From Caprimulgus europaeus (lineage: Eukaryota > Chordata > Aves > Caprimulgiformes > Caprimulgidae), in NCBI GenBank assembly GCA_907165065.1, contig OU015524.1, positions 39,375,295 to 39,439,294 on the forward strand: a stretch of 64,000 nt of DNA, in the 5' to 3' direction. The position numbers were made by a program, and so were the translations under genes. The notes below the pieces were generated by a model. That model did no database searches. It was not told where the DNA came from and saw only the letters and a program-made list of their open reading frames with translations. Shown one piece after another: positions 4,347-63,965 of the stretch (position 1 is the first letter of the stretch; each line of letters opens with the position of its first letter).

Positions 4347-4616
4347 AGAATCACAGAATGGTTTGGGTTGGAAGGGACCTTACAGATCATCTAGCTCCAA
4401 CCCCCCTGCCATGAGCAGGGACACCTTTCCACTAGACCAGGTTGCTCAAAGCCTCATCAAGCCTGGCCTTGAACACTTCCAGGGAGGGGGCATCCACAGC
4501 TTCTCTGGGCAACCTGTTCCAGTGTCTCACCACCCTCACAGTGAAGAATTTCTTCCTAATATCTAATCTAAACCTACCCTCTTTCAGCTTAAAGCCATTT
4601 CCCCTTGTTCTGTCAT
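4347..4616 (-). mobile_element. CR1 LINE, 3' end fragment
   Basis: The plus strand begins ATAGAATCACAGAATGG and continues through the familiar antisense CR1 tail (TTGGAAGGGACC, CACCCTCACAGTGAAGAA). The element is therefore on the minus strand with its 3' end at 4,347. It ends near CCCCTTGTTCTGTCA. It is 5'-truncated, as is usual for CR1. Confidence 0.93.
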
Positions 4617-4684
4617 TAACTTAAAACCTAATGGTTCTAATTGCAGCTATACTGTTAGATGTAGAGCTACATTTACAATTTCCT

Positions 4685-20281: not shown

Positions 20282-20722
20282 GAATCACAGAATGGTCGGG
20301 GTTGGAAGGGACCTCAGGAGATCATCTAGTCCACCTCCCCTGCCAAAGCAGATTCCCTATACCAGGTTGCATAGGAAAGCATCCAGGTGGGTTTTGAACA
20401 TCTCCAGAGCTGGCGACTCCATAACCTCTCTGGGCAGCCTGTTCCAGTGCTCCAACACCCTCACAGTAAAGGAGTTTTTCCTTAGGTTTGTCTGGAACTT
20501 TTGGTGTTCCAGTTTTTGCTCATTGCCCCTTGTCCTGTCACTGGGCACCATCGAAAAGAGCCCGGCCCCATCCATTTGGCCCCCACATTTCAGGTATTTA
20601 TAGACACTGATAAGGTCCCCCCTCAGTCTTCTCTTCTCCAGGCTGAAGAGTCCCAGCCCTCTCAGCCTCTCCTCATACAGAGATGTTCCAGGCCCCTCAT
20701 CACCTTTGTGGCCCTAAGAGGC
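20282..20722 (-). mobile_element. CR1 LINE, 3' fragment about 440 bp
   Basis: The plus strand starts AGAATCACAGAATGGTCGG and runs through GGCAGCCTGTTCCAGTG and the antisense of the C-terminal ORF2 region (CCCCTCAGTCTTCTCTTCTCC). It lies on the minus strand, just past the probable end of the DESI2 3' UTR. Confidence 0.93.
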
Positions 20723-24407: not shown

Positions 24408-24641
24408 TTAGAATTTGGTGTGGCGACCAGTTCTAGACCCAGATGCTGAGCTTGCCAAGGAAGCTGATGCTGCTGCATCCTCAGCTTCCTCCAGCTCCTC
24501 GTGTAGCTCCTGGCTAACGCTGGACTGGAGGGCTGCAGGAGTTAGCCACTCCTTTGGCAGACAGCTCTGGAGAAATGGAATACAAGAGCTGAAGTAAGCA
24601 AGGCGATTCACCCATCGTGGAATCTCTTTTCCACACAGAAT
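24408..24641 (-). CDS. DESI2: DESI2 coding exon 5 with stop codon
   Basis: The acceptor is CCTCCCTAG at 24,642-24,643. The exon opens [13 protein letters not shown] and continues [13 protein letters not shown]. It ends in an acidic, alanine-rich tail and HTKF followed by TAA at 24,410-24,408. The human tail ends in a similar GRHTKL. Confidence 0.96.
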
Positions 24642-40955: not shown

Positions 40956-41120
40956 CTGTAGTTTTGATCTAATATCCTCATCCTCACTGGACACATAAAT
41001 GGCACAATGACTAGTAGCCCAAATAATGTAATTGTTCAAAGTGCTGTTTAAAATCTGATACTGCTCATGCAGTCCTTCATTTGCCCTGTTCTGATGAAAC
41101 ACAAAACAGGATCTGTAGTT
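40956..41120 (-). pseudogene. CATSPERE: CATSPERE exon with NYRSCFVFHQN (last one recognised)
   Basis: This 165-nt exon holds 55 open codons. The acceptor is TTATTGTTTCTGTTCAG. NYRSCFVFHQNR aligns to mammalian NYKHCFSYAIGK, and YQILNSTLNNYIIW to YEIINSSNGNHIFW. The donor GTTATT is weak. The following membrane-anchor exon, expected at lower coordinates, was not found. Confidence 0.82.
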
Positions 41121-42839
41121 CTGAACAGAAACAATAAGAGAGTTACTTATTTTTGAACTAGCTTTGAAAAGCAATTAAACACAAACAGTTTTAGTGTGGT
41201 GGTTTTTTAATGTGCAAGTAGTGGCTGAAAATTATTAATAGATTCTGCTATGTAAATGTTTAATTGAGCATAAATTAAATGTCTATATGAACATAAATTA
41301 TATAATTCAGTCCCTTGACAGAGCTATTAAGAAACTGCCAATAATTCACCAAACACATATATCAGTCCTTAGAGTAACTGTATTTCTCCTAAAGACATAA
41401 TTTTAGAGAACTTTCTGGTTTTACAATTTTAATTCTGTCTTTACTCAGTTTATTATATTCAGTCTCTATTATATAGATCTCAAGGCTACCACAGAACAGA
41501 AGAGACCGAATATAAAATAGAGAACTGGGAAGATGCCTCAGAATTTATTTCTGAAAATCTTCAGAAAGTATTTTCCTCAGTCTGAAAGGGGCATGAAGAT
41601 GCTTCATAACTGTGGCTAAAGTCCTGGACAAGAAAGCCCTGGACAGGACAAAGCATTAGTTCTGTGGATATTATAGAACATATTCCATTTTTCCCCATCC
41701 AGCTTGGCTGCTTGAAGGTAAAAACCCCAGATGTCATGGTTCCTGCATTCTCTTTACCTTCTTTCTACCTCGTAACACTTGTGGGTTCCTGGCATGGCTT
41801 CCAATGGGAATGTGAACAATCAAACAGCCAAAAAAAAAGAGGTTACTTCCTTGCATTTCTCAACATATATGTGCTTGGCTAAATAAAGTCAAGAAAGAGT
41901 CTTGGGTAGGAGTTTTATGTGTGTTCTAAAAGTTATGTTATTGTCATAGAAAGCTAGAAAAAAGGTCAGCCATAAGGAACTGACTCTCACCTACACTAAT
42001 GGGCCAAAGTAATGGTGACTGAAGAGGTTATCTTAGTGGACAGGTTTAGCAGAGGTTTGTAATCCCATACTCCAAGGATTTTCTTATTAAAAGATGCAGA
42101 AATTTAGTTAAGGTTCCATTAAGATAACAGTTTGCTGGCAGGAGAGTTGAGTCTGCTTTGCTTCTTCAGAAGTCTACCATGAAGAAAGTGGGAAAAGCAG
42201 ATTAATCTTCACATAGAATAATCTTTAACTTAATTGTGCAAGGCTAAAAATGGCATGAAATGAGATGTCAGAGCTAGCAGAGCTCTAGGAGAGCTAACTG
42301 AGAGATCAAAACTCTTTGGTTTGAACAGGTAGCAAAGAATTGCTGCTTGGAGGAGAGCTCATAATGGAGAGCATGATCTTCATGAATAGTGAGCTGAAAG
42401 CCTTCTCAACTTGCCTGTCTCAATAGATCTTCTGTATTCCTTTCTCCTGTTTACAAGAATGTTTCTAACTGGTAAGAGCAAGGTTATATTAACCCCAGTA
42501 GCATCCACATCCAAACAGATGGAAAGTATGTGGAAAAACATATTGCAAGTTGATATAATAGTAATAGAAGTGTCCTGGTATTCTGGACTGAAAGTCTCAG
42601 AAGATCCTGAAGACAAAGTTGCTGAGGGAAAGTTGGGCAGCTGAAGTCCAGCAAAACCACTTGGTCTTCATCCTTCCTTACCTTGACAATGTCCTGTGAA
42701 AGGCAGGAAACAGAGGAAAATGGGTACATCAGCTCTTTTAAGCATATGATTGTGAGTAAGTCTGATGCTGACCTGAAAGCCAAGCGTCCCCTAAAGCATA
42801 ATATCAATAATACTATTGATACATAGGGCAAAAAGAGCA

Positions 42840-43174
42840 ATACTGAGCAAAAAGAGCTCTCTTCACAAGGAGCCACATGGAGAAGACATGGGGCAATGGC
42901 TACGAGTTGCACCAGGAGAGGTTTAATCTTGATAAATTAATTGTTTTACAGTGAGAACAATTATTCACTGGAGCTACCTCTCCACTGATGTTGTAGAATC
43001 CCCATCACTGGAGTTTTCCAAGATGAGACTGGACACAGAACCAGATAATCTCATCTGGGCTCCCTTTCTGACAAAAGGTTGGGCCAGATGATGTTTCCAT
43101 CCCAACCTGACCTCGTGAAGCCCAGGTTCCTTCCAATCTGGGCTTCACGAGAAATCTATGATTCAATGATTCAA
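42840..43174 (+). mobile_element. Diverged CR1 LINE, 3' fragment
   Basis: GGGGCAATGGCTACGAGTTG, then GAGGTTTAATCTTGAT, GGGCCAGATGATGTTTCC and a terminal AATCTATGATTCAATGATTC correspond to the sense strand of a CR1 tail, including its degenerate 8-bp terminal repeats. A perfect hairpin interrupts the usual CCTTCCAACC segment near the end. The 5' boundary is uncertain. Confidence 0.75.
43112..43151. repeat. Perfect 14-bp hairpin at a CR1 tail
   Basis: CTCGTGAAGCCCAG and CTGGGCTTCACGAG are exact reverse complements around a 12-nt loop (43,126-43,137). Confidence 0.9.
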
Positions 43175-45665
43175 AACTGTTTTACAAAGGTACTTAAATT
43201 TATCCAGAGTTATATTTGTGATTAAGATTAGATTCTAGCAATAAGAAGAGTACAAATAGGTCAGGCTTCTTAAATATGAATTGAGGCATGAAAGCAGCAT
43301 TGTTTTCATTCAAAGTATATTCTAATGTTAAAGGATTTTAAGCAGACGTGTAACTGTAATGATTAAATAGATTTCACCCTAAATTTAACTATAGCTGCAT
43401 TTCTAGTATCAAAACCACAGGTAGATGACAAAAAATGCTTACTGAATTGCAATGATATTATTGTCCCTTTGAACAAATGCCCAATTCTGTGAAACAATTT
43501 TTTTTTAGATGAGAAATAAATGCTATGAAGTTGACCTAAATGCCAAGGAAACTACTGATAAATAGGATATCCAAGTGGAATCCTTTCCAAACTGCCATTG
43601 GTAACAAAACTGTCTCTGGCTTTGATGTGGAGAGGATTTCAGACAAATTTTTGTCTCTCTGAACAACACAGTGAAAACAAGATTTTGCAGAAATTTCAAG
43701 CCAGATACTCCAATCTTGTGCTCAAGAAATAGCTCATTCTTTGCCTTTACTTTTTAGGAAGGACAAACACTTTTTTTTTGCTTATTCTATTTCCACTGAC
43801 TTGAACCCACTCTTCTTCTGACAGCTTCCTGCTGTGTGTTTGCATCTGAGGATTTTTTTTTTAGTTCTATAATCCCCCTCTGGCTTCCTATCTAGCGCTC
43901 TTCTTGGTGTTCCACTCTTCTGTTATTACAAGAGTTTCAATTATTCCTGTTGTTGACCACAAAGAATGCTTTACTGAGTATTAAGTGATACTTTTGCCTT
44001 TCTTGTAATATAATAACTAACAATGCTGATAATAGATTTTCAGAACAAAATTATCCTTTTAGATCATTTTATGGTTACACCAATGCAGTATTGTCATATC
44101 AGCTTTATTCCACCTTGCAATATTTCACCATGCCCCCTCCTCCAAGGATATTGGTAATGCCAGAATATGAAGTAAGATAACTATAGATTTATTCACACTA
44201 TCACCAGCTATTTCTAAACATACATTTTTATAGCTGTGGTCCTCATATTTTATCCAGTGTAGAGTTTTTACTTTGTTTAAGAATCATGGGTCAAGACTGT
44301 GCTTTATACAGACAACCTGATTGTTAAAAATACAAACTAAAAAAAAAAAAGATTAAAAATGTGAATTTTAGATGTGTATCATTTGAGTATAATACATTAA
44401 AAGGTGGCATCATGTTTCAATATATATGATTTACTTATCCTTAAGAGATAATTTTGTTTGTCAAGGTTGCAAATGAATAAGTAAGATCGTGTCCAAACTC
44501 ACAGCATATCTGTATATTTATACCTAGAAGAGTGTCAAAGAGCTCTTTCATAAATTGAGCTGTCAGAGGAGGATACCAAAGCTCCCATAACACTACATGT
44601 AGATAAGGAGTCAGCTTAGATATCCTTTGTCATCCTACTGACAAAGGAAGCAATGTACTATTTTAGGCAGAATTTGTTTTGATGAACATGTGGACTAGTG
44701 TGCATCATTTTTTTCTCTTTGGAGAGAAGGCAGTCTAAAATTTCAAAGTGATTTTTGAAGTTTCATTTCCCAACCATATTTTATTGGGCACATTTTTCTT
44801 CTGTTTACCGTATCATTTTGATACCTCCTACATGCATAATTTGGAATAGTCTGTGATGTTAAGTCCAGTATACAAAATGTTAAAATGTTATGCAGCTATA
44901 TACATCCATTCAGACTAAAGAGGTCTCAACATGTGTAAAAACAGTCATATACTTTGCATGTAGACCACTATGCATAAGACATTTAAATTACATTCTCAAT
45001 GGATGGATTACTTCTTTCATGAATAAAGTGTACCCATAGTCAGTTCTGCCTTTCACCTCCCATAATATTAAGTTTGTTTCAGCATTTCTACCATATGACT
45101 CGCCATCATATCTGTAAAACATGTGGAATGTGACATCTCAATGAAACAGCACAGTCACACAAGCAGCCTTTGTATGCAGACCTGTGCGTGGATCAGTGAG
45201 CACGTAGAGCTGCTGCTGCTGTGGAGGGTAAGACAGGTAGGCAGCATGCTGGCAAGACATTTTGCTCTAAGGCACCTTACAGCATCATGCAATTACAGCA
45301 CTGATGTGGTCCAGCAATACCCACTGAAATCAAACATCTCGTACTGTGTGTGAAAAGGAACATAAAAGATTTGATAACATTACCCTTGCTGTTGGACTTG
45401 GATGCTTTCTGCAGCTTCACATCCCTACGTGACCTTGGTAGAAGAAGTCTTCCTCATGCCTCACAGCTTATCAGCTTATTTTACTTACAAGGAAATAACA
45501 GGTTGGAAATACTCTTCATAATGAAGTTCCATTAGGCAACTGTATTATTTGTCCCAATCATAATAGGTTATCTAAAAAAGGAGAAGTTTTATTCAGATAT
45601 TTAATGTCACACTCTGTTTCTCTTTTTCATAGTCAGCCCAACTAGAATGAACCTGTAACTCTTAC

Positions 45666-45699
45666 CTGGTCCTCAGCTGTTGGATTCCACAGAAATTTC
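45666..45699 (-). pseudogene. CATSPERE: CATSPERE 34-nt exon with FLWNPTAEDQ
   Basis: The acceptor is CATTTTATTAG and the donor is GTAAGA. It reads KFLWNPTAEDQ after a split Gln codon, aligned to mammalian EVWGPEN. It ends in phase 0 and leads directly into NYRSCF of the next exon. Confidence 0.7.
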
Positions 45700-45775
45700 C
45701 TAATAAAATGAAGAATCAACAATCATTTTATTAAACCTCTTATTTTTATTTATCATGATATAACATAGTGTCAAC

Positions 45776-45908
45776 TGTTTAGACAGAAAGATTTCAAACT
45801 GCCACTCTTCTCCATGAATTAAAAACATAATCAGCAAGTCTTTATTTCTACTATACAGCTTAAGCTTCCTTATGTTATTAAAAATCAACTTTAAAATGAT
45901 ACTAATTT
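45776..45908 (-). pseudogene. CATSPERE: CATSPERE exon with FLIHGEEW
   Basis: This 133-nt exon opens EISIILKLIFNNI and continues to MFLIHGEEWQFEIFLSK, aligned to mammalian VWEIHGRDDYSF. The acceptor is CAAATCTTTAG and the donor is the weak GTTGAC. The mammalian segment around YIWGEYGCPL has no counterpart, so an exon may be lost or the exon shortened at its start. Confidence 0.7.
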
Positions 45909-46062
45909 CTAAAGATTTGTAGTCAGCTACTGCTATCAGCATTACCCAGAACTACTAACTAAAAATTTAGATAACAGAAACAATACAGTTCCTAGTTGCT
46001 TTACACTGTTCATTTAACAGCACAATGAGTGGAACTCTGAACTACAGTAAATGCCCATTTAC

Positions 46063-46113
46063 CTGTTGGGATCAGGTTCAGATAATGCTTTTGCAGATAT
46101 TTCAGAGAGTAAT
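46063..46113 (-). pseudogene. CATSPERE: CATSPERE 51-nt exon with DYSLKYLQKHYL
   Basis: The acceptor is TTTTTATTTTCTCAG and the donor is GTAAAT. DYSLKYLQKHYLNLIPT aligns to mammalian DFSYVIEKSYLRHQPS. The frame is open and the phases fit both neighbours. Confidence 0.72.
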
Positions 46114-46350
46114 CTGAGAAAATAAAAAATATTTCAATAGTTTTCTGCATTGATTCTATTCTGGTAGAGAATACTTGGAATACTAGTTAACTTTAAGTTA
46201 ATAAATACTGTGTCTGTACTGTAACAAAAGAAAAAGATTGTGGGAACTAATTTTATTAAGTGATGTATATTCAAATATAGCACTTCATTTTCATATGACA
46301 CTATGTCCAAAATGCCTAGTCTTCTTTGGGCTGTTAATACAGTGCCTTAC

Positions 46351-46403
46351 CAGGTATTCTGTGGGTAGTAAAATTAGGTTTTTCACAGACTACATCTACA
46401 GGC
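46351..46403 (-). pseudogene. CATSPERE: CATSPERE 53-nt exon with PVDVVCEK
   Basis: The acceptor is GTTGTCTTTTAG and the donor is GTAAGG. PVDVVCEKPNFTTHRIP aligns to mammalian QIAVGCDDKKFIAIKG, keeping the Cys and the Phe. The split codons at both ends agree with the flanking exons. Confidence 0.7.
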
Positions 46404-48035
46404 CTAAAAGACAACAACAAAAAAAATCTGTATAAATTAACTTCATTTAATACTTCAGCAGTGCACAAAAATGTATATTATTTTTCATTATTCTGTGCTT
46501 TAAGAATAATAATTATTTGTACAACAATTTTTCATCTATTATTTTGGTATTCTGAACTCTATTCACAAATAACTTTCCCAATCATTTCAGATGCTGCTGA
46601 ATTTTCTAAGGATATTAATTTTTAAAAGAAAATACAAAGAAGCTGGTTTTGGGTATGAATTCTGGCACAAGAGTTCCAATGCCAGTGATTTTAAAGTGGG
46701 TTGCCAGTACTGCTGATTCAAAGATGAAGTCAAAGAAGAATGACCATTTGGGGTATTTAGCCTTTCTCATGGGTCATTTGCCAGAATTTTTGGGTGGGTA
46801 CGTCAGCTAACTGATAATGTAGAAATCTTGTCTTGGATTGAAAGCAAGAGAAGCTATTCAAAACAAAACACAATACAGAGTCTGAGCTCATTATCAATTG
46901 TCAGACCAATTTAAGGGGACACAAGAGACTGGCAAAAGAACTTTTAAAAATATAATGAGTATAATTATGGGAACAAATAAAAGAAAGCTGTTAGTAAAGC
47001 AGACAAATCACAGTAGTTAGGACTGTTAGGCATCTACTCTTGTTTTCTGATTCTCTCAGGACATTTTAATTACATCTGGATTCTTCTAAATAAAGCACAG
47101 TAAATTTAGTGAACTAAAGCATTTCGGTTCTTAGGTGATTACTTTGTGACATATGAAGGTCGGAAGCCTCTGAAATAACAGGGAATTGTAATTAATTTAA
47201 AACATAAGAATAAGGTCCAAGAACACATGCATCTATGGAATAACACTCTCCCAACTACATCAATGCAGTGGTTTAGTCTATATGATATCGTATTCATCTG
47301 CGCTGAAACTCTGATGCTTCAAAGGAGAGTGAAAACAAACACACCTTCACCTCACAGAGGGTAATTTGGCCATGGTGTACTGGGAAAACCATACCTTTCT
47401 AATTCCTACAGCATACCTGATGGAACACTTAAGCCTGTCATTAAATTGCATTCATTTTCTTGTGTAGAATTGCAAGTATGAAAAAAATCTTGAGGGCAAT
47501 GGCCACTTTCTTTTATGAAACATGAAACAAATTGATTTCTTAGGTGTCACATTGTAAGACTTCCTTCATTTTCTAGATAATTTTTGTGATCCTAAAGCCT
47601 TCTTAGTATTTTTGCATTCCTTTTGTACAGGAGATATTAGAACTGGACACAAATATATTAGTGTCAGCTTTATCAATGCTATGCACCAAAGCAAATTGAT
47701 CTTCTTAATTCTTATTCATGTGCTTTTTCTTACACATACAAAAATCCCATTTGGTCCTTTGCCAGAGCACTGTACTAAGGCTAAGTGTTGAGGTGCTTAT
47801 TTTAACAGTAGCTGAAGTCATCTTCTTCAAAGAATGAGGTGGCTCAATCATGTGCCACACTCAGTAATCTCTTGTATATCTTTCTAGGAAGAATAGCTCT
47901 TGATTTGTATGTGGAATATAAAGTTTAGAGTCTGGCAAGAATCTACAATGATAAAATGCCAAATGAGAGAAGACATTTTTTAGCCTGCAGTAGACTATCA
48001 ATTTGTTATTAATTTACTCATGTACAAAAGACAAC

Positions 48036-48172
48036 AGCACCTTGATTGTCAAAGGGACATCTGCATTTCTGAAAAAAAGCTGGTTAATAGTATGGAAGAA
48101 GGTCAGAACTGTCTCCTGAGTAACTTGAGTACCAATAACACTTTCAGACATGGAGAGAAGATTTGAATACAC
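48036..48172 (-). pseudogene. CATSPERE: CATSPERE exon with VYSNLLSM and VPLTIKV
   Basis: This exon has 45 open codons plus 2 nt. The acceptor is a strong TTACATTTGCATACAG. The end NADVPLTIKVL aligns with mammalian KACPIAQKVF. This 3' end uses donor GTTGTC, which is poor; the better-looking GTGCTG five bases earlier would break the phase with the next exon. Confidence 0.7.
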
Positions 48173-50126
48173 CTGTATGCAAATGTAAAGCAAAAGTGAG
48201 GATAAGAGAGTTAGGACTGATCTCCAATCCCAGATCCTCATCAGTGAATATAACCTGGGGATGTAGGTTTGTTCAACAGCTGTATCTTTGCCCAGGAATA
48301 TTTAAATGTTGAAAAGCCTGTGAGCTAGAACATAAAGAGTGAAAAGAAACTGTGGAATAAATCTATGTATTAGGTAAAATATGCATGGTTTTTCTGTCAA
48401 TAGGACCCTTATACAGCCCTCGGAACAGTATTCTCTATTTTGTATTTTATAAATATTTATTTGCTTTCCCTAATGTGACTCAAGTCCATTGTGGGCTGCA
48501 TATGATCCTTCTTGAAGTATTACAGCAGTAAGCAGTTATTTTCCTGGTAGTAATATTAACTGTATTATATATGTAAATAACTGTCAGGGCAGTTAACAGA
48601 GTACTGAAGAAACTTTTAATTCCTACTTATCGGAACTCCATTATCAACTTAACATCTACTGTATACATTTTCTGATACTCACAATGCCTTTGTATAATTG
48701 GATTCTAAAGTATAGTCAGTTTGATGGTAAAATGTAAATGTCTAAAAGAGAATAACAAATAACAATAATTAATAAAAATCTTTAAACCACAATGGTGCTT
48801 TTAGTGAGATAAAGAATAACTTCATGATATCTTTGGAATCTGAAAAAGCACAGAGAAGAGGACTAGAATTCCCTGAGAGAGGGCGGGAGCTGGAAAGAGA
48901 AAATGAAGGAAGGAAAAGGAAAAGCAAGGAGCCAAGGTCACTGGACAGCAGAATTATATAGCTACCTAAATCCTCAACTCTCTTTTCTTCATAGGCACAA
49001 CACAGAGAAGGAAATAGCATCTCAGACCAGTACAAGAATTTTCCTTCAACAACATTCCCCCCCCCAAGAAGAACAAACAATACTCTAAGACCAGGAATTC
49101 TCACATATATTAGAGGAAAACAGGGATGTCTTTGATGTGATTGGAAATGAATCTGTCTCAAGGAAGGCTGCAAAGATACATCATGACATTGTGATAGAGG
49201 TGGAAACACTCTAACCACTCCATCTCATCAGTGAGAACCACAATGCTGCATCTAGAAGGGGGATGAGGTGTGTGCCATATGAACAGCAAGCAACAACAGC
49301 TCATCTCTCATCAGATCCTTTTCCTTTACACCATTTACTTTTGGTATTTCCTAGCTCTTTAGCCCAGGACCTGTCCTAAGCCTTGCCAAACCAATCAAGC
49401 TTAAGTCAGTATTTTTATACTAGCAGTTTGGGCTCATTTGTGGGCTTGATAAAGGAGCCTTGTTTCTGAGATATCTAGGAATGGGTGAACTTGTAGAGAG
49501 TGACGGGACTTAAGCTATTCAGAAATAGTAGTTGCTTCACAACATGCTATGATTATGGTACAGACACCTATATTAGCAGGTTGTTCAAGCACAAGAGAGA
49601 CACTTTTTATATGTATGGATCATTAGACATCCAAGTGTTGACATCCATGAAGCATAGCAGCAACAGAATGGAAATGAGCAGATAAACTAGACAAAATGCT
49701 GACAAACACTTAAAAGATACTAAAACATGTTCCATATGCCTAAATCAGGGCAGATTATTTCCATCTTATGTAACTAATTGTTCATGTTTATTTACAGATT
49801 TAAAGTACTGACCTGGTATGATAAAACTTAGTTACTGTGCTATTTTATTTTATAGTTATAAGTAATGGTTTATCTTATTGAATTTTAAATCCAAGAAATA
49901 CACTTAAATAGTAGCTGTATTAGTAGAAAAGTAATCTGCATGGACCTGTGTGAACATATACTCCACTGTGAAGTCTCAATAGCAGTGGGTGCATGTGGAA
50001 AGAAGCCCTTCTCCACTCCTCCATACACATGACTATCCCAAATGTTGCTCAAATAGAGAAGAAAATGTAGAGCAAAATCTAGTAGGAGGAAACTAATATT
50101 TTAAAGAAACTTTAAAAAAAACTTAC

Positions 50127-50309
50127 CTCATTTTTAACACAGGTTCCATGAGCAACCTCATAACTGCTGCTTTTTTCTAGTTGTAGTAGGTCTGGCCTGT
50201 AGACTTCCAGAGATGTACCTACAGCCACCTTCTCCTCAAAAGCTGTCAGAGACCAAAATGTCACTTCATCTCCCGTGTCCAGATAGTAGTCATTCAAATC
50301 CATGCTGTG
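50127..50309 (-). pseudogene. CATSPERE: CATSPERE exon with YYLDTGDEVTFW
   Basis: This 183-nt exon holds 61 open codons, phase 0 at both ends. The acceptor is TTGTAGCTTTTCAG and the donor is a perfect GTAAGT. YLDTGDEVTFWSLT aligns gap-free to mammalian FLDKGEALTVWTQI, and LEVYRPDLLQ to VESYGPKILQ. A conserved Cys lies in HGTCVKN. No lesion is visible. Confidence 0.8.
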
Positions 50310-51379
50310 CTGAAAAGCTACAATTGAGAAAGAATCTTCAGAGCTAAATGTAGAGCTAAATATTTCAATTTCCAAAGGATAGATCTGTCAGTATATTCTA
50401 GATCCATCGATTAATAACATGTGTACACTAGCAGATGGATTCAAATAAAGGACAATATTTTTGTTTCCACTTATGCACACAGGAAGCTCTACCAATTCTT
50501 TCAAGCCTGCCCTTGCAGCAAATAAAATGTTATTTTTCATTTTTTATCAATATATTCCCAAAGCAGGCTATAAGAAAAGCAGACAGAATACACACTTGTG
50601 TAACTTAAATTTAGAAAAGACTATGGCTTTATTTATTTCAAATTAACTTTTCTTAGAGTGGTTCATGTTTGTGCTTCATACTTTTGCACATAGGGACATA
50701 AAGGAGACCCCACCATATATCTGTAGTCCCCTCAACCCTATAATTCTAGATCTAAACAGCTCTATGAGAACATCTTCCAGAGACAGAAGGTGACTAGGCA
50801 TATGGCATACATATCTCAAAGAACTTTGACTAATGTTAAGTAGTCCTTCCATTTTTCTTTGACAGTATAGATAAAAAAACATGCTAATGGTGATAACAAG
50901 AAGCATCCCCTTCATATCCAGAGCTAATCTGGAGTTAACATATGTTATGAAAAAGATTGCTTTAAGAAACACTGTCATTCATAGATGCTTTTACAATGGC
51001 ATTGTAGGTGGAACTCCAGGTTGCTGCTTGTGGATGTCTGATATTTTTCAGTTCTGATTAGTATACCTTAATCTCTGAAAGCACTTTCACTTAATCCTGT
51101 AGAGGAGCTATTCAGCTGAGTAGTCTTTGTAAAAAGTTTGTTGTGCTTTTCATTCCTCGGGATACAGAAAGAATGAAAGAGATGTTTGTCTAAATAATTT
51201 GGTACCATTCAGATTAAGATTTGTCTGCTGTCCAACTCAGGCCTGAAACTACAGGGAGTTTAGGAAAGAGCACAGATTAATTAATTTCCTAACAGTAATG
51301 AAATTCAGCTATGACTGAAATTTTGAATGAGTTCCAAACCACTCCACATGGAAGAAGAGCAACCTTTAGTGCCTTGATC

Positions 51380-51404
51380 TTTTTTTTTTTTTTTTTTTTT
51401 TTTT
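51380..51404 (+). repeat. Poly-T run of 25
   Basis: An uninterrupted T run could be the minus-strand poly-A tail of an old retrocopy, but the sequence to its right is not recognised as any transcript. Confidence 0.9.
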
Positions 51405-52189
51405 ACCCTGGTTGAAGTGACCACCTTTATACAGAGGTGAATGAACAAACCAAATCACCATAAACTCAGATGTCCAGTTTACCAAAGTCATGAACAGCAA
51501 GTGTAACTCCTACTGGAGAACAGACTGTTCTGACAGAGGGAAGCTCTTAGCCCACCTTTGAATGAACATTGGAGCTGTGAAGCTGAGCAAGCTTTCCCCA
51601 ACTTGGGTATTGAAGACTGCACTACTGTCAGTCAAAATCCTGAGACAATATTGCTCCAATATATACTCTGGAGCAACAGTTCCTGGTATTAATTCTTCAC
51701 AAGAATCAGATGCTTGCTATATCTTTCCTTGAATACTGCAAAACTCTGTTGAGAGTATCTGTCAGATCATCTTTTCTTGGAGAGACACTTCTGGTGAAAC
51801 CAATGACTGAGTAGGCAAAATAAAAAATGTAGCAGAAAATAATAGTGACAATCCATTATTATTATTTTGATTCATGGTTGACTACAGTCTTTTATCTTCT
51901 TGTCCCTAACCACATGGCTGAAACACTACTTCTCATATCTGATAATGGTGTATTTATTTTCATTGACTGTGTTTTTAGTACAGACATAGATGCATTTTAC
52001 ATGCCCTGTATTGGGTACTGTTTTTCATATTACGGTCTATTCCCTTCTGAAAACTAGCTCTGGCTCTCTTAAACTAGTATAATCTGAAAGAGATGGTGAA
52101 AATAGACCAGCTTATTTCAAAGTCATGAGGAGATATTTCCACTTCTGCAGCTTATCAGCTGCTGCCCCTAATTTTGTAACGTTAATGAA

Positions 52190-53105
52190 TTTGCATTTTG
52201 TCCCACTGATGAAGATATTAAACATATCAGTGCACCTCTGACAGTTAGACTTTGAGCTGTTGATCCTCTGGGATCAGTTTTCCACCTACCTCACACATAT
52301 CATTACATTGTATATCAAATGCATTGCTAAGGTCAAGGTAAATGATATCTACTGTTACACTCTTGTCCACCAAGTCAGTCATCTTTTCACTGAAAATGAT
52401 CAGGTTGGTCAAACATGATTTTTTCTTGGTAAGACCATACTGACTGTTTCCAGTTTCTCATTCTTTCTGTGACTGGAAATGCCTTCCAGGATTATTTGAT
52501 CAATAATATTACCAAGGACTGAGGTTAGGCTGATTGGCCCATAGTCTTCCTTGTCTTCCTTCTCTCCTTCTTCAGATGGCTAAGATGTTTGTCTTTTTCC
52601 CCTGATCACCACAACTGTTCAAAGATGATGACATGCAATGACATCTGCCAGCTCTCTTAGTGGTCTTAAGGGTATCCTGTCTGATCCTGTGGCCTCAAAT
52701 GTCCAGCTTATCTAAGTAGTCTCTAATTAGGTCCATTGATAATATAGGTGGTAACTCTCTCCCACAAAATTTACTAATGTGAATGGAGACCTGGTAAGAC
52801 TGAAAACAGAGTTTGTCAATAGAGACTGAGGGAGGAAGGCACTGAATACTTCAGCCTTCTCTTTATCCTTAGTCAGGAGATCTCCAGCCTGATCCACCAG
52901 TGCGCTCAGCTTTTCCTTTTTTTTCCTTGTGCTGTTGATGCACCTACAGAAGCCTTTCTTTGTTCCCCTTAATATCTCTTGCTAGTTTCAATTCCAGACA
53001 AGTTTAGGTTATCCCAATTCTGTCCCTGCATGCCTGCTACCATCTCCTGTACACTTTGGTTTTGCATTTGAGCTCAATCATTACCTCATGTAGGATATGT
53101 TACTG
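52190..53105 (-). mobile_element. Old CR1-like LINE body including reverse-transcriptase fragment
   Basis: On the minus strand near 52,440-52,315 translation gives KKKSCLTNLIIFSEKMTDLV and then IIYLDLSNAFD. This matches the RT signature (YLDFSKAFD) of CR1-type LINEs with substitutions. Upstream minus-strand sequence (53,105-52,860) also resembles avian CR1 ORF2. It is riddled with stops and indels, so inactive. It sits in the CATSPERE intron between 50,309 and 54,771. Confidence 0.8.
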
Positions 53106-54770
53106 GACCTGATTTTGGTCATATAGATCTGTTTATAGCTACAGTACATTAAAGTGCACTTCTATTTTAAACATCCCACATTCTCCAAGAGAAAGGCCTG
53201 AGGCTCAGCCTGTCTTCCCATTTGGACAGAGCTGTCTCTTGCCTATGCCAGGGGTAGTAAGACAAGACTTTTGTTGCAGTGGCCATGAGGCAGAAACTTT
53301 CTCTCAACAAAGAGCACTGGAAGATTGATTAATGGGTTTCCTTATGCTTCTCCTTGCTGAGTCAGTATGGAAATGGTACTCAGGTATAGGCTTCTATGAG
53401 CCATCATAAGCCTGAATTTTCTCTAAAAAGGACCACCAAGAAAATGGCTTCAGTACTATGACTTGACCTCTTCTCATGCCACTGTCAGTCTGCCTTTCTA
53501 TGGTATCTTGAGGTTATTATTTTTAGCAGAAATATTTATCAAGACCTCTTTGGAAATCTTCTTGCCAATACCCTTGGCCTGGCCACCAGCGCTGTGCAGT
53601 AGTTGAGCTGGCAGTTCTGCCATACTCTGCCTAATTGCTTCTTGTTCTTTGTAAGTAGTCTGTCAGCTGCTGCTGTATTTGAAATAATAAGCTTGACTCT
53701 CAAGCCATCACCAGGCTAGCTTGTTTGGATCCACCCTCTATGTCATATAAGATGCATCAGTAGGTAAGACTGAGTGCCCAGTAAGCCTGATAGCTTCATC
53801 TTGCAAGCCTTGTCCCAATTAATATTTATGGTGGCCTTTGGAGCCAGCTAATTTTGCCTGAGAGAGCTTTTCCATATGATCCTGCACTCTCAGAAGGGTT
53901 TTTGATTGGAACAACAATTCAAAATGGTAGAATCTCTTAAGTTTCATGAACAATTTTGTAGAAGATGGATGTGGAAGCAGCAGTCCAGCACTGCTGCACT
54001 GAACTCTGAACTTCATAGAGATGGACTCAGACTGGATTTTTGTACAGTTACCAGTAGTCAAAAAGACATGCCATTGTCTGTAGAGTGAATGGCACCTGCT
54101 TAGTTGAATTCTCCTTCAATAGCCAACTAGAGATGAGCATCTACCTTGGGAAAAGACTTGATGGGCTTTCCTGAGGCTGGAATAATGAATAAAAGGACTT
54201 TTCTTAATAACAGCTATATTCTACTTGGGAATTCCAGGTATTTTCAGTAGGATGCTATGATTATAATCTGAAAGTGAGTGCCTTAAAAAGTCAGAAAGTT
54301 GCAAAATAATCTCTCTTTGATGTACTGAAAAAGTTGTCATGCTATTTCAGTCACCTTCTCTTGAGAAAAATCAGAGTCACCATGCCATTAAACATCTAGT
54401 CAAACAGAACTGAGCAAAAATAATCAAGTTATCTTCTTGTAACAAATGCTAAGGCTGAAAGCCGGGGTTTTCTTATTAGAATCATACTGAATAGGAGGTG
54501 TATGTTAGAATCATACTGATATAGTTGCAGGTTAACAATACCTGAAGAATAAATAACTGTAGTTTGTTAACTCTCTTCTTGGTATGTCTATCCATCTAAA
54601 AATAATAATTTTCAGTCTTAACAGACCAATTAAATGAATAAGTATTACACTAATACTGTCAGTTATAAAATGTTAGCTTCAGTGATCACTTACTTGAAAT
54701 TTCTTTTACTGTACTACTTAATTAAAAAAATAATAAATACTTAAAATATAAGAATAAATAAAATAAGAAT

Positions 54771-55224
54771 AATCTGGTGAATAGTGCTCTCATGAGACAT
54801 TTCTGACAGAGAAAGTTTTGATCCAGATACTTTGAAATGTCTGGTAGCTGTGTTGTTTTTTTAAGTGTAGTAAATGCTCACAGCAGCCCAGATGATAATG
54901 ATGCATTTATGTGTATCATCCTCATAACAGAACTGCGGGGAACAGGTAAGTCAAAATTTCTCAAGCCCCAAAATTGTCTGTCTTCATTATACACTGCCTG
55001 AAAAAAAGTCTGGAGGAGCTGCAGCCACTGCAGACCAGCAACAACATAATTTCAGATGGGACCAAGTCATAGCTAACAGCATCTATAGATAAAGCAGCAA
55101 TGTTTGGAAAATTTAAAAACTTCACGAAGTTTGCTGTATCTCCTATTTTATTAAATGTTTCATTATATCCAAGATAAACCTCAGAAGATGTCCATGCTGC
55201 CAAAGTACTGAATTGTTTTCCATT
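54771..55224 (-). pseudogene. CATSPERE: CATSPERE exon with VYLGYNE and VYNED, carrying several lesions
   Basis: The acceptor is TTTTTTTAACAG, followed by NGKQFSTLAAWTSSEVYLG, aligned to mammalian STFAVWTENEIYLG. A conserved CxxC (VCSGCSS) follows. At the minus-strand T7 run (plus A7, 55,001-55,007) the frame breaks, and one extra base restores AVYNEDRQFWG (mammalian VIYNEDTKQWV). Near 54,880 homology again changes frame: SGLL is followed by SIYY, with about 13 nt missing relative to the mammalian spacing. After SIYY an in-frame TAA lies at 54,863-54,861, then SLSEMSHESTIHQ aligns to LSMLSNDSIIHE. No donor was found at the end. Confidence 0.8.
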
Positions 55225-55721
55225 CTGTTAAAAAAAATCCCCTGACACAGTAATTAGGTAAATAGTAACTTCTCTTAAAGTTTATATCAAGAATGTACAT
55301 TAAGAAATAAAGATGTTTGGGATACATTTTCAGTTAATGTAATTAGGAGAGCTTCACTGAAATACATTTACAAATTTAAGCTGTGATCCTAAAAATGATT
55401 TCATTCTAAAAATGAGCTCATGCAGAGAGAGCCACAGACAGTGTGCAGACCTTATTTCAAAATGTTCTTTAAATAAACTTGTTGCTGTCTGGTCATTTCT
55501 AACTCCAAGCCCAGCATTACATCAATGAAAAGTAGATCTAAAATAGATTCATCCAGACATTTAATGAAGGCCATCCATATCTTAAATGTCAAATGAGAAC
55601 TACAGATAACCTACCTGCACTGGATAGAACAGATGAACACCAATATCTTGAATGTATTCCAGTTATTTAACTTTCAGGAAGCTCATGTTCCACTCCAAGT
55701 TTAAAAAACATTATTAGCTTC

Positions 55722-56113
55722 TCATTTATAAAAAGTACCATTTATTAAAGATATTATTCCATTATCTCTTAGAGCCACATCAGTTACATTGCTATTTAGG
55801 CCTTGGGTCAAAGTATCTGAGGAAACTTTTATTTGTAGGTGAGTTTTGAATCCATCATTTGTATAGAAAGTTCCAAAATTTGATAATAAAACTGCTGATG
55901 TTGGAAAACATGCAGACCATTTATTTACCAGAGAAGTCACTACTTTGGGGGGAACAGAGTGAGATGTAATTTTCCTTGCTAGGAAATGATTGTTTGGGCC
56001 TTGGAATTACAAAAGGAGTATCTAGAACAAAGCATTCCTGAAACACTGTTGTCTTTTCATGTATTTTTGCTACAATGTCATCAGATATTGCAGGTCCACT
56101 GACTGTCTGTAAT
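55722..56113 (-). pseudogene. CATSPERE: CATSPERE exon with TVFQECF, broken by a frameshift
   Basis: The acceptor is TTGTTTCTTCCATTTCCAG. The first part reads LQTVSGPAISDDIVAK, then TTVFQECF, and stays open to CSPQ. After the G6 run (plus 55,947-55,952) homology continues in another frame as WSACFPTSAVLL and ALRDNGIISLINGTFYK. These align to mammalian WDACVVASAVL and LSRDGIVFLINGVLY. A single-base indel in the run is enough to explain the break. No good donor follows FYK (TGAG is found, not GTGAG), so the 3' boundary is approximate. Confidence 0.8.
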
Positions 56114-58139
56114 CTGGAAATGGAAGAAACAACCAAAAAACAGAGAAACTTGAAAGACGAGAACTTCAGACAGCTGAAATTCAGCTACATGATTAATGTC
56201 ACATTCTTAGAAGAATTGCACCCATAGTGGTACCAAATTATTCCCAGATTCTGTTCCAGTTCTAGAAGGCAGATGATGAAATGAAATCAGGGAGAAAAAG
56301 ATCACAATTTGCCTGCAGTTGGACTTCAACTTCTAAATTTACCAAGACAGGTATATTCCCATCTCAGTGCTAAGAACTGTACATGGCTGAAAAATCTGGC
56401 TGAGAAGATAGTATCTGAAAATAAAAATTAATGAGTTTACATTTTAACTCCGTGGAACAATACAGCTTTCACTATTACTGAGGACACCTTCTCCCCACCT
56501 TTCCCATAGCCTCCTTTGAGCTACTTGGAATGTGTAGAAGAAAACAAATTAAAAAGAACTAATACCAAGCCATGTTGCGGATGATGATCAAGGCCACTGA
56601 TAATTCAGCAAGAGTTGCGTTGATAAGCAATAAAGAAAATGGGACTTAAAAAGAGAGAACCTACATGTAGGAATAGGCTTATTGTAAATCATGCAGATTA
56701 GCAAGCCTGGCAACAGAAATGGTCATGAGTCTTGGGAATTTCTAAGTCTTCTAAGGAAGAAGATTTCTTAGCTTCTTACACACTCATTGTGTGTGGGGGT
56801 ATATATGCTTCACATTGACAGTTACACATGCATCCCTAACGCAGATATTCTAGGCACTGAAAGCACAAAATGTTAGTATGCTTGGTAAGCAACTAAGAGA
56901 ATCCTATAAAAAAATTTAAAAATCACATTATGTCATTCTATATCCTAATGGTTATATGCGTTGCTGGCCCATCCTCAGTGTGTTCCATAGAATTATTAAT
57001 GAATTCTAATTATTCATTAATTGGGGGGTTCCTTACAGAGATCGACAATCTGTGTGGTCCTCTCAGTTATAAGTACACAGTATACTGTCACTTTATTAGG
57101 ATATACATTGATATGAACACAGCTCTAATAGCTCCAATACATCAAGTCCAAAGTGAATTTGAAACTTAAGAGGTTTCTTTGACAAACTTTCCCAGGAAAC
57201 AGAGAGTGTGGATAATGCAAGTTAATTAAGACAGATAAATTTTTTTGTAGCTGCACAGCTTTCCAGTATTACTTCCCTAACTTCAGTTGGCATACTACAA
57301 CTCATTCATTAAATACATAGGATAATAATGCATCTGATGGAGTGCAAAAGGCCAGCATCTCTGAAGGTGACCTGTTCAAAGATCAAGGCCCAAACAGTTC
57401 TGTTTCACTACAACAGGATACAGCAGGGCTGACAGAAACTTAAGCATCCAAAACTTCAGCTCAGTATAAAGCAGACCTGGGAGGAGCACAAGCTTTCTAG
57501 TTTTGGTTTCTGGAGAAAACATGATGCAGGATAGAACCTATTCCTATTCTTACAAACTGTTCGGAGTTTCCTGAGAAGCTGCTGCTGAGTTTCAGAGGAG
57601 ACTTAGGAAGCCTAAGAGCCTCCCACTGTTAACCAAATAATGAGCAAAACTCTTGACTCTGGTAGCTCAGTTAGGATTGGTCTTGTTTCTTTTTCTCTCA
57701 TTTCACTGGAAAATATGTCTCCTGAGAAACTGAGTTTGAAATTTCAGTTTTCATACCTCATCTAGTGATAATCATCCTGTCCAGTCTGACTAGAATTTGA
57801 ATTAGTCTATGGGCTCAGTGCTCTCAAGAGGGATGCTAAGGAGACGCTTGCATATGATTATTGGATACAAGTTGTTTCACCTCAAACTTACTTCAGTGCT
57901 TTTCTATCAACAGATGTATTAACTTCCAGACTTATCTCAGTAAATAAAATATTTGGAAAGGCAAAAATCATGCAAATTCTGTTCTTGCAGATGTGAATGA
58001 AAGTGCCACTGGCTTCAATGCAAGGTGTTTCCGCAAAATAACCAAGCATATGTGAGATGATTCACATTAATCAATAGACTCTTTGCCTTATTTGGAAGAC
58101 AAAAGACTTTATTTCTAAAGCAATTTTATTTTCTCTTAC

Positions 58140-58163
58140 TTGATGATTCTGCATTTAAGTTGT
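58140..58163 (-). pseudogene. CATSPERE: CATSPERE 24-nt micro-exon
   Basis: The acceptor is a strong GCTTTTTTTAG and the donor is GTAAGA. It contributes QLKCRII with split codons at both ends (1 + 21 + 2 nt), aligning to mammalian GTWRIVV. Both split codons are completed properly by the neighbouring exons (GG/A and AA/A). Confidence 0.6.
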
Positions 58164-60328
58164 CTAAAAAAAGCAGCAGTTAATAAGATACAAAAAAGTA
58201 ATACCAGAACTCACACCATTAAGAAACAATTTACTGAAATTGCTAGAATGCATATTTCCCATTTCGGGGGTGGGGTGAATTATTGAAGCTCCGCTGTGAC
58301 AAATGCGATTGAAAAAGCCCAGCTTTGGTTATAGCAACTTTTGACATGGAGTGTTGCTATGTTGCCATCTAGTGATAAAATAGAAAGGTACAACAGATAA
58401 CATCGGAGGAAGAGCAAACCAAACCTACACAAACAGTACTACCTACCACATTCAAAGTCATACTCGTTTCTTGCAGTATAATACATAGCATGAATTACAT
58501 GCTGAGAGTAAACTCTTTATAAAAGAAGGTAAAGTCACAAAATAGTAGTGAACTGTTTCTAATTGGCATTAAGAGATTGTGTAAAATGGGTAAGGGTCAG
58601 ACGGTGAATATGCTGCAGCAAACGTCTGCAGTTGAGAACCCCTTGTGAAATGTAAACCCAGAGTCATTCTCACTGCCCCATAACAAAAGTTAGCTCTGAT
58701 GCATTTGGATTAGCTTCACTGAAGGCCTATGTGGGATAGAATTTTACAGATCACTAAACTTTTGAGAAATACCTTTGCTACATATAATTTCTGGTATGGT
58801 CACATAACTTATTTACTAGTTTGTTCTATTTTCTCATGAACTAACTTACAATCAAATAATACCTGTCAATTTTTGTCATTGCTGATCTGTTGTGTTTTCA
58901 CGGCACACTGCAAAATATGGTGAATACTACATACTCTTAGGAAAGAAGTAATTGCCCTAAAATGCAGTAAGCAGTGGTAAAACTAGAGCAACTGACAGTA
59001 TGGGAGCCCTTATATTAATTTAAATATTTATTGGTTCAAAATACTAGAAATAACAGCGCAGAAGAGTTTAATCAGGGGCTGCAGCCCAGAAAAAAAAAAA
59101 AAATTGAAGGGGATGGCAGTGCCACTCTTTAAATGTCAGGTTTATCTTGGTACATGAATTGCCTTGTTGTGATTGTTCAGACTCACCAAAATCTTATCAT
59201 AATCCCTTTATTTATTTCTAAGAAAATTGACAATAGTTGATTGTGAAAGAAACTCATTCATCCTTTGGAATTCTATGACGTTCCTAAGAAAAAAAGCTCC
59301 TATGAATGTTACCTGATGGTGGATGCTATAGTACGAGGAGGCTCCGGGATCCCTCTTGCTTTTCCCTCACCTTCCAACCACTTCCTGGCTATCCTGTTTC
59401 CTGTACAGAACATACAAACCCCGAGTCAAAGCATGACTGTAATATAAGCATTAAAAGAAGGATTAATACTTGGAGTATTATTTTATCACATATATTTAGA
59501 ATCATATTACTATTGCCATTGCCCTACTACTGCTCATCAAGGTTATAGTTAGTTGATTTACAGAAAATTCAGCATTTACAGAATTCTTCAGCAGCAGTAA
59601 AAGAAAATGCTTCAGATGTGGCAGTTTTTGCACAAATACCTGAACTTTATCCTAAACAAGCTAGCAGAGACACTGGAAGCAGTTTAATTGAACCTGAATG
59701 ATATTCTGCTTGAGCTACCTTACTTATTTTTTTGAAATTCAGCACATAAAGTAAAAATGTGCAACCCCTACTTAGAAGTCTAGAGAGGGTGAAGAAGAGT
59801 ATCTGTCCAAGACTTTTTTCTAAATGAGGATGAGGTCTTTGACATAACACCTTACACAGGTCCTGAACTTCTAGGAACGGCACACCTGAATGGGGGGATA
59901 CACTGAACTTTGAGCTGATTACTACAACCTGATAATTAAGACATTAAGACCATTCACTATGGTAAAAATTTTAGGTGATTTTTGATCTTGCTTTCTACCC
60001 CATGAGCTTCTATACATATGAAGCAGAACAATTACATGCAGTGAGTTTTTTAGGACTGACAAAAAGGCCAACATAAGTTTTAAGTACTATGGTAAATGAA
60101 ACAAAGGGCAGCTAAATGTGTAGAAGACAAGCTGTCTTCAAAGAAGAGGAAACATGGCAAAATTATTAGTGAAGCACAAAGTTACCTCAAAGTAGAAAAA
60201 AGAGACCTAGACATGGGCCTCTTATCAACAGCTCTCGTAATGGCCCTGCTTATCAATAGCTGTTTGTTAAGTCGCAAGGGTAACGATCTTAAATAGCATT
60301 CCACAAAACAAAACAAAATAAAACATAC

Positions 60329-60398
60329 CCTAATTTTGGATGCTCCTGAGAATAGCACTTTTCTTTTTTCAAATAGGTATGAACTCCAAAACAGCCTG
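60329..60398 (-). pseudogene. CATSPERE: CATSPERE exon with VHTYLKKEK
   Basis: This 70-nt exon has acceptor AATACTCAG and donor GTATGT. It reads GCFGVHTYLKKEKCYSQ and then EHPKL, aligning to mammalian PVIHTVLKRKVYSSNEK. It ends with two bases of a Gly codon completed by the next exon. An AG three bases inside could serve as an alternative acceptor without changing the phase. Confidence 0.7.
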
Positions 60399-60817
60399 CT
60401 GAGTATTTGAGAACTCCTATTTAAATAAAATAAACGTTACTATTAATTATATTTTTGTCCAGCTAATGTAAGGCTGTTTATTACATTCCTCTTTTGAGAT
60501 TCTGAAGTTGGAATCAGCTTGGATATTATAAAATAATTTTTCAAATAATGACATACCATTAAAATAATATTTACTCAATTTTTCATTTCAGAACACAACA
60601 CAGACACAAGTTCAATTTTCTCTACCTTTTTCAGACAGAAAACAAAACCACTTTCCTAATATCTAGTTCTCTAACAATAAAAGTGCCTTCACAATACAAT
60701 TAATATTGCTACCTTTTTCTTCTTTCATTTCAATCTTGACAATAGTAACAAATGTTAAAAAATTAAAAGATATAATTTAAAAAAATTCAAATAAATTGTA
60801 GTGCCATGCATGCGTAC

Positions 60818-60842
60818 CTTGTGTCAGATACTGTACCAGAGA
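60818..60842 (-). pseudogene. CATSPERE: CATSPERE 25-nt micro-exon
   Basis: This encodes SLVQYLTQ plus one base, with acceptor TAATTAG and donor GTACGC. It aligns to mammalian SIVLSTQ. Its length (8 codons + 1) is exactly what is needed to join the phase-0 end of the preceding exon to the phase-1 start of the next. That phase fit is the main support, because 25 nt alone is weak. Confidence 0.55.
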
Positions 60843-61474
60843 CTAATTACTTTCTGCCATTTGTTTAGATCAGAAACTTATTCCTAACAAAATTTATTGT
60901 ACATATTAATCCTTACAACTAATCCATGTGGGATAATCTCCTAAATGAATCTCCATTCAGTCCAGAGATCTATTTGTATAGATCAGCTTGTACAATAGGT
61001 TGTCACATTTTAGGTCTAAATTAAACCAGTGAATTGACATCTCTGTCTATCGCATATGATGACTTCCACAATGCTTTTGCTTAAACCTTTTTTTGCAACA
61101 GTTTGCTATGCGGGTGTATAAGGAAATCTGAAAAGAGACTTCTGTTTAACTGTCACACCTTACTGCCTACAGTTACAGTTTCTGAATAAAAATTTCACAA
61201 ATACTAAAATATAACTGAATCACTAAAACTTGCTAATTATTCTATTTCTATGAAATAGACAATAAGTTTCACCTCACTCATTATACCTGCCTTACTGCTG
61301 CAGTATAACAGGAGAGAAAACCTTGCAAATTTATTTTTCCTAACACAGTAAAAGGAAATAAGTAAAGATGTATGCAGGCAGTATATTTCAATAAGACATT
61401 TCCAGTTTGAACTGGTAAATTTTCACAAGACATGCATTTTAACTTCTTTCTTAAGTGGCATAATTTCCATGTAC

Positions 61475-61549
61475 TTGTGATGGAATAATTGCAGCGTGGT
61501 TCAGTTTGGAAGTATCTGCACTTCCAGGATCATATATCCACAAAATAAA
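61475..61549 (-). pseudogene. CATSPERE: CATSPERE exon with WIYDPGSAD motif (first one recognised)
   Basis: The minus strand reads WIYDPGSADTSKLNH followed by AAIIPSQ, with donor GTACAT at 61,474. It aligns to mammalian WAYDPESADPDELLGN. A long pyrimidine tract precedes it, but the expected AG just before the Trp codon is absent: the sequence runs TTTATTTTG TGG. This looks like a lost acceptor, so the 5' boundary is approximate. The exon ends in phase 0. Confidence 0.75.
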
Positions 61550-63965
61550 AAGGAGACACAAGTAAATAGTTTTTTAACAAACACTAATATTGTATCACTA
61601 TGGCAGTATTTCTTCTTGTGACAACATATAAGATAACAATATTAACTTAGGTAATGCATATTGCAAACTACTCTTTTACTCTTTGGGGGTTTTTTTATGT
61701 GAACAGACAACAACTGAAGTAAGCAGCACCTCCTTTCTCAGAAATAAAAGAGGAAAGAGTAAGAATTTATGCAGAAGAATTTTTTGTCCTTTGATGCTGT
61801 TATACTTACTTCCCTCAGAAGCCCTTCCTCAATCTCTCTCCATTCTTGAGGGCTATGCAGCTATATACAGCCCGTTCTGCGGCAGCAAAGGAAGAGGGGT
61901 TAGTCACTGGTGAAACAAAACAGAACTTGTTTCTTGTTGAGGAAATGTTACAAAGCTGTTATTTAAATGTGCATCATGTACGCTTCCACGACTGGCACAT
62001 CACTGACATACTGCTCTTTCAGTCAGGAAGAAGGCAAACAGCTGGTATTTCCATCCCATGGCACATGCAAGGGGAGTAGCCACTCAGTGAGGCAGACTCA
62101 CCACCTTCCCCACGAAGTAGAGTGCTGTAAGGACGTGCACAGAGGCAGTTACCACAAAAGAGCTGATGTGCTGCAAGTTTACATCCTACAGTTGGCATCC
62201 TGCAGTTTCCTATTCATCTACTCAAACCAAAATGCCAAGTCTTGCAATCCACCCTTAAAACAGGGCAAGCTGAGTAATGGCACAGCTGCTTGCTCAGGGG
62301 TGGCTGAGGAGAAGAACTTGCACGGGGAGAACATAAGCTTGCTTCCACAGCTGTGAAGTTCAACCATATTCAGCAGACTGCAAACTACTCAGGAATTCAG
62401 TTTGTTAGCAAGGACACTTTCACTATTATTTAAAGCTTTTGTATTTCCCCACATGATCACAATCTCTCTTACAGTCAAAGAAGGGGTGAGATAGGAAATA
62501 ATTTATCTTATCTCTTTATATTAAATTTGGCAGATGCTATGAAATACGGAATTTTTAAAACAAGATTGTATTAGTTTACTGTACCAATGGAATGTTTAAT
62601 CAGATTCACTGTATGCCACACACATTTTAAATATCTCAAACAAGGATACAATTTCAAATAAATGAGTAATAGGTTGGTCTGCCAAAGTCTGCCATTAACC
62701 AGCCTAAATCTGTGTCAAAATTATTTTCCATAAAAATAAGAAAAAAACGGAGAAGAGCTAAATCAAAATATAAGGCCAAAAAACACACTCAAATTTATCT
62801 GTCTTTCACTTACGGAGCGTGGATCTGTTCTACAAAAACAATACATTACATATTACTTTAAATTATCATTAAAATCTTGCTATTGAATAAAACTATTTTA
62901 TATTATTTATTTGTATGAGAGACATACACAGTGTCTAAAATACTGTTTTTAACACACTGGCTTTGGTTGTTCAACTGCACAAATATTTTAACATCTAAAG
63001 AGAGATCCATATCTGTTGATGTTTCTCATTTTAAAAAAAATATTCTAAGCATCTTTCATGGGCTTTTTTATAACAAAGCTTCTCTCTTACCAAAAATATG
63101 TACTATTTAAAGAGAGCATGTCTTCTGAAGATTTCACCTTATCTAAAGTTATCAGATTAAAAAGATCAGTTTTCAAGGAAGTATACCTGCTATATTAGAG
63201 TGCACAATGGACACTGTGTTGTGCCCTATCTAAGGAGAAGATTCCCCTCTCCAGTAAGGGAGACATGCTCTCTCTGTAATGACATGACAAGGAGCAAACT
63301 GCTGCTTGTGTTAGAGTTGGGGCCTCTGAATCTTCTGCCCTCTTGCTGCAGCTGGAATGGGTAAGGTCCAAGGGTGAGGGAAAGGCAGGGAAACTGCTGC
63401 ATCTTGGATAACAGAAATACTACAGAATTAGGCTTGCATGAAATCACACCCCAATAAACATCCTAGATGAAATGTTAATTTTGATTAAGCCAATGCTAAA
63501 ACATCCACTGCCTTCAAAAGAGGTCAAGAATTCGTCCATCAGTTTAAGCAGAAAAAAGAAGCTGTAGACATCGATCAGAGTTGATAATACAGAAGCATGT
63601 TTCAATCACTACCCAAGTAATACATTAAAAGTCTACTGATTATCTTCAAATTTGCTGAAAAAAATTCCGCATGACTACAAAACTAAATTTGCAGTTTTCA
63701 AGCAAAGACACAAGTAATTCTAACTAGTGTGACTGAGGCAGAAAAAAAGTCTGATCTATGGTTCTTCTAGGATGAGAGAGATTGCTGCTATTAAGGCCAT
63801 CTTTGGCTTCTTGTCAATCACACTTTGTTTAAGTTTGGTAACTGTACTCACTGCATTCCTTCCAGCAAAACAAACAAACAAACAAACAAACAAACAAACC
63901 CAATTAAGTGCCCCTTTCTGCAGTAGTATCTGGGAAATGTAAGAAGACATTCTCAGGCAATATAT
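61550..63965. other. Region expected to hold the first CATSPERE exons; none supported
   Basis: AT-rich sequence. Two exon-like blocks with splice-like flanks (62,816-62,831 and 63,189-63,231, minus) were seen but could not be tied to the N-terminal protein sequence. Plus-strand open frames at 61,683-62,356 have no recognisable similarity. Confidence 0.4.
63866..63899 (+). repeat. (CAAA)n microsatellite
   Basis: Eight consecutive CAAA units are present, translating on the minus strand to a spurious LFVCLFVC stretch. Confidence 0.95.

Follow-up and report, generated by a model that had tools for sequence, protein, structure and literature searches.

The window, the whole stretch of 64,000 nucleotides that was analysed, carries on its minus strand a relic of CATSPERE, which lies between ADSS2 and DESI2, on the strand of DESI2. 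Exon 1 of ADSS2 is found on the plus strand, near 75.0 kb in window coordinates. On the minus strand, DESI2 is represented by a match to its first coding exon (36453..36488), two internal exons (29351..29422 and 27385..27480), an exon match whose blast piece overruns the exon (26345..26665), and a match to its 3' coding exon (24411..24680); COX20, also on the minus strand, precedes the window by about 3.3-4.3 kb. The human order is ADSS2, CATSPERE, DESI2, COX20, and the order at the bird locus agrees with it, so that the original prediction was right to place DESI2 downstream of CATSPERE, on the same strand and in the mammalian order. HNRNPU gave no match in a neighbourhood search around the locus, and Rfam gave no match across the 64000 bases of the window. 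Two open stretches on the minus strand, 4435-4620 and 20360-20713, resemble what we take to be the C-terminal end of CR1 ORF2.

Ten CATSPERE exon stretches lie inside the window (61552 to 40956) and three outside it, at 65.6-69.2 kb, all on the minus strand. At least 13 minus-strand exons had been predicted within 40956..61549; the strand and the end coordinates agree, the outermost in-window stretches being 61552-61475 and 41120-40956, whereas the count is ten in the window and reaches 13 only if the three outside are included. These three are N-terminal: the one at ~69205-69117 carries an in-frame stop at 69184, and those at 67345-67276 and 65668-65580 look intact. Inside the window, 61475..61552 (human aa 118-143, NTD2) has no recognisable AG acceptor. 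The stretch at 55615..56113 (~aa 182-345) has a CAG acceptor and a GTAGGT donor, one frameshift between 55956 and 55931, a second at 55724, and a TAA stop at 55669. The next, 54774..55224 (~aa 346-500), has lost its donor GT and carries frameshifts at ~55008 and between 54917 and 54899, together with a TAA stop at 54863. Both splice sites of 50127..50567 (aa 503-650, the propeller end and Ig-like domain) are canonical, and the stretch is disrupted by a frameshift in an A-run at 50544 and a TGA stop at 50390. Two stretches with TTTTAG acceptors follow: 48683..48741 (~aa 651-670; GTGAGT donor), which is open if this donor is real, and 46351..46403 (~aa 697-715; GTAAGG donor), which we assigned by inspecting the sequence, the aligner having taken another path. 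The C-terminal domain is represented at 45489..45571 (~aa 742-768), where the TAA stop at 45547 falls in a codon without human counterpart, and 45012..45111 (aa 768-801) is open. The stretch at 44234..44320 (aa 802-830) has lost both its acceptor and its donor and bears TGA stops at 44293 and 44245, both at positions where the human protein has W. The last, 40956..41120 (aa 831-883), has a frameshift at 40988.

Several exon calls of the aligner were rejected: 60289-60215 and 58287-58252 were not recovered when aa 112-190 were aligned alone, nor were 47344-47303 and 46343-46194 with aa 645-770 alone; 38046-38038 comprises three codons, 40221-40198 comprises eight codons and appeared in one alignment run only, and 78756-78724 is positioned beyond the first exon of ADSS2. 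Within the intron of 4.2 kb that separates CATSPERE aa 502 from 503, minus-strand ORF pieces (52100-53000) appear similar to a CR1 LINE reverse transcriptase.

A profile of human and mouse CATSPERE scored 571 against the minus strand of 40000-64000 in a splice- and frameshift-aware alignment, versus 41.5 for the plus strand, 46.0 for the reversed profile, and 44.1 for a column-shuffled profile; a protein-to-genome alignment had been proposed as a check with reptile CATSPERE, and here the human and mouse profile aligns on the minus strand. The aligner was purpose-written to tolerate introns, frameshifts, and stops; a trial with lax penalties gave 233 on 6 kb, upon which the penalties were tightened and the controls introduced. 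The mouse half of the profile was taken from PDB 7eeb_H, and the human reference sequence was checked by end-to-end alignment with 7eeb_H (1148 bits). Beyond the window, the N-terminal profile scored 120.9 versus 41.0 and 36.5 for controls. A phmmer search of PDB with six joined minus-strand ORFs returned two sequences at E<=1, 9ubw_H and 7eeb_H, both of them CATSPERE (best E 2.6e-32), and in Pfam these joined ORFs match the propeller and Ig-like domains of CATSPERE. When the blocks were joined and each stop or frame change was written as X, five Pfam CATSPERE domains scored above cut-off: NTD1 (47.2 bits), NTD2 (32.6), beta-propeller (230.1), Ig-like (37.5), and D/E C-terminal (62.8). The ORFs of 57.9-61.6 kb had no PDB match at E<=10, though 61552-61475 does align to the CATSPERE profile. 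Over the whole locus, 748 codons were aligned after five exon calls judged spurious had been left out; 261 of the 748 encode the human residue and 244 the mouse residue, and of the residues shared by human and mouse CATSPERE the relic keeps 182 of 376. Functional mouse CATSPERE (PDB 7eeb_H, 9ubw_H) has the same domain order over ~aa 32-882, but the bird copy is disabled. In the spliced alignment, human aa 1-30, 144-181, ~671-696, 716-741, and 884-951 are without counterpart at the locus, only a three-codon match lies past aa 882, and the C-terminal transmembrane segment was not found. Elsewhere in the assembly, a profile search found no place above the CATSPERE family cut-off and only two weak matches (E 0.07 and 0.14).

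The lesions described above amount to seven in-frame stops in 725 codons (19 blocks) and six frameshifts. If the donor is the GTGAGT at 48682, an eighth stop, the TGA at 48681, lies outside the exon; it is probably intronic. We examined 25 splice sites (13 donors and 12 acceptors) and judged 21 intact, a share inflated by our having located sites partly by searching for GT and AG, with some coordinates shifted; the four lost sites are the donors after 54774 and 44234 and the acceptors before ~61562 and 44320. Lesions along the gene rule out an intact CATSPERE, and the locus, as judged from sequence, is not a working gene. A transcript from it is possible, because 21 of the 25 splice sites look intact, as do several exons, among them 67345-67276, 65668-65580, and 45111-45012.

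The locus is orthologous to CATSPERE, retains its position, strand, and exon order, and carries disabling lesions along the gene. We therefore read it, with a probability of about 0.95, as a CATSPERE unitary pseudogene, the orthologue of mammalian CatSper epsilon, in place between ADSS2 and DESI2: it bears multiple lesions, is present as a single copy in its original place, and has kept its introns. Both the CATSPERE identity and the relic state put forward in the original prediction are borne out by the alignment score (571 versus 41-46), the five Pfam domains above cut-off, and the lesions along the gene. That errors of sequencing or assembly make a functional CATSPERE look broken is extremely improbable; three frameshifts do fall at or near homopolymer runs (50544, ~55008, and ~55.95 kb), but homopolymer errors would not account for the seven in-frame stops, two of which fall at tryptophan codons, or for the four lost splice sites and the exons that are missing. 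A use for a truncated or rearranged protein or RNA derived from CATSPERE, which corresponds to the original suggestion that one part of the complex survived longer than the others, is favoured by those exons and splice sites that are intact; the lesions, however, are spread along the gene and the transmembrane end was not found, and we consider such residual use very unlikely.

We searched the same assembly for CATSPER1-4, as had been suggested. CATSPER3 had matches near 47.44 Mb of contig C8, three of them collinear on the minus strand (best E overall 2.0e-8), and spliced alignment scored 334.8 versus 47.0-50.8 for controls and recovered further pieces. CATSPER3 is, as judged from sequence, a decayed relic (C8:47440001-47450000, minus strand): a stop interrupts its pore exon, and the frame shifts near the 3' end. 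The other three pore subunits had only weak matches in assembly searches, which could miss a copy after heavy decay or strong divergence: 17 rows for CATSPER1 (best E 8.8e-4), 26 for CATSPER2 (best E 0.0012), and 12 for CATSPER4 (best E 0.14), which we take to be other cation channels. A CATSPER2 candidate with internal stops on C16 at 2.77 Mb scored 223 in spliced alignment versus 88-138 for shuffled, reversed, and other-strand controls; it was rejected, as the alignment has the look of what we take to be a T-type calcium channel. We thus found no intact CATSPER1-4 pore set, CATSPER3 being a relic and CATSPER1, 2, and 4 without convincing match. CATSPERD (PF15020) and CATSPERG (PF15064) had no Pfam match, in a search whose method, applied with PF22850, also missed CATSPERE's own C-terminal exons. 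The idea that epsilon outlived the rest of the complex is not supported, since CATSPERE, too, is broken and CATSPER3 persists alongside it as a relic.

Loss of CatSper in birds has been described before. The available passages of a 2019 study (PMC6679542) report fragments of CATSPER3, B, D, and E and no trace of CATSPER1, 2, 4, G, and Z in zebra finch, the same in chicken (CATSPERE fragments included) with additional CATSPER2 fragments, and CATSPER1, 4, and G as present in ratites and lost across Neognathae. According to the accessible part of PMC6660944, CatSper is conserved only in kiwi and tinamou among the birds shown, and ostrich has three alpha subunits; as early as 2008, the part of PMC2572835 at hand described degenerate remnants of CatSper-beta and CatSper3 from both chicken and zebra finch. 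A contrary claim, in the portion of PMC11289002 available, is that birds lack CatSper1 only, with 3 to 9 bird records for each other subunit. The view that CatSper is absent from birds, with chicken as the tested case, is outdated by what these passages report (PMC6679542, PMC6660944, PMC2572835). As far as tested, the subunit losses agree with the zebra finch pattern in the passages of PMC6679542; CATSPERD fragments, known from zebra finch in those passages, were not seen here by the Pfam search, a weak test. CATSPERE is likewise broken in zebra finch and chicken, and the zebra finch locus spans ~12 kb, but the passages of PMC6679542 hold no exon or lesion map, whereas the present analysis maps 13 exon stretches with their lesions. 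The CatSper-beta and CatSper3 pieces in the accessible part of PMC2572835 are likewise in-place remnants between conserved neighbours and differ from the CATSPERE relic in belonging to other subunits and being short fragments only. Among the literature found, judged by title or the start of the abstract, we did not find an avian CATSPERE relic mapped exon by exon.

The CatSper complex would have lost its function in the bird lineage, selection on its subunits would then have relaxed, and CATSPERE would since have decayed neutrally; no protein function would be expected from the relic. Neutral divergence in birds is low, and for this reason the relic is still readable. From the stop count we obtained 0.074-0.100 substitutions per site (transition/transversion ratios 2 to 6), and splice-site loss gives ~0.08 per site; the two measures of decay agree. 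With the neutral rate assumed to be 1.3, 1.9, or 2.5e-9 per year, the stop count corresponds to an age of 30-77 My, with Poisson intervals of 12-159 My, and the estimate is biased young because exons too decayed to find go uncounted. The neognath ancestor is about 90 My old. After 90 My, 8.2-21.3 stops are expected versus the seven observed, and the probability of seven or fewer lies between <0.001 and 0.43, according to the rate and transition bias assumed, so that an old loss fits comfortably only under the slowest rate and the count falls below expectation under the faster ones. Using seven instead of eight stops left the odds between old and later loss unchanged.

These numbers bear on whether CATSPERE stayed functional long after the neognath ancestor and was then lost late and independently. 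The low stop count, the point estimates, and the largely intact splice sites all point that way, but the upper ends of the age intervals reach 61-159 My, unfound exons bias the estimate young, and the splice sites were in part located by looking for GT and AG. Furthermore, the loss of CATSPER1, 4, and G across Neognathae, reported in the passages of PMC6679542, would leave no working channel. The stop data do not separate an old from a later loss of CATSPERE, and the inference from good preservation to late loss finds no support with intervals of 12-159 My. We regard late, independent loss as unlikely, and equally doubtful is its corollary that CATSPERE died tens of My after the neognath ancestor and that neognaths lost CatSper several times, subunit by subunit, and not once.

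The CATSPERE pseudogene adds a well-preserved case to a gene loss that was already published and comes as no surprise. Taken alone it repeats the published pattern, and its interest is limited to dating the loss, for which a relic that spans most of CATSPERE with mapped lesions is useful; lesions common to bird orders would tell a single loss of the channel from repeated ones.

That the locus is avian, as originally predicted, is corroborated by the adult beta-globin of the assembly: among its 146 residues, 4 differ from the best-matching PDB chains, which include 3eok and 1faw and which we take to be bird haemoglobins. The pattern of losses alone indicates that the host is probably a neognath bird. 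The beta-globin cluster is located at the end of contig C1 (126 Mb), and none of C1-C12 and seven smaller contigs reaches 150 Mb, which suggests that the large ancestral bird chromosomes are split in this assembly.
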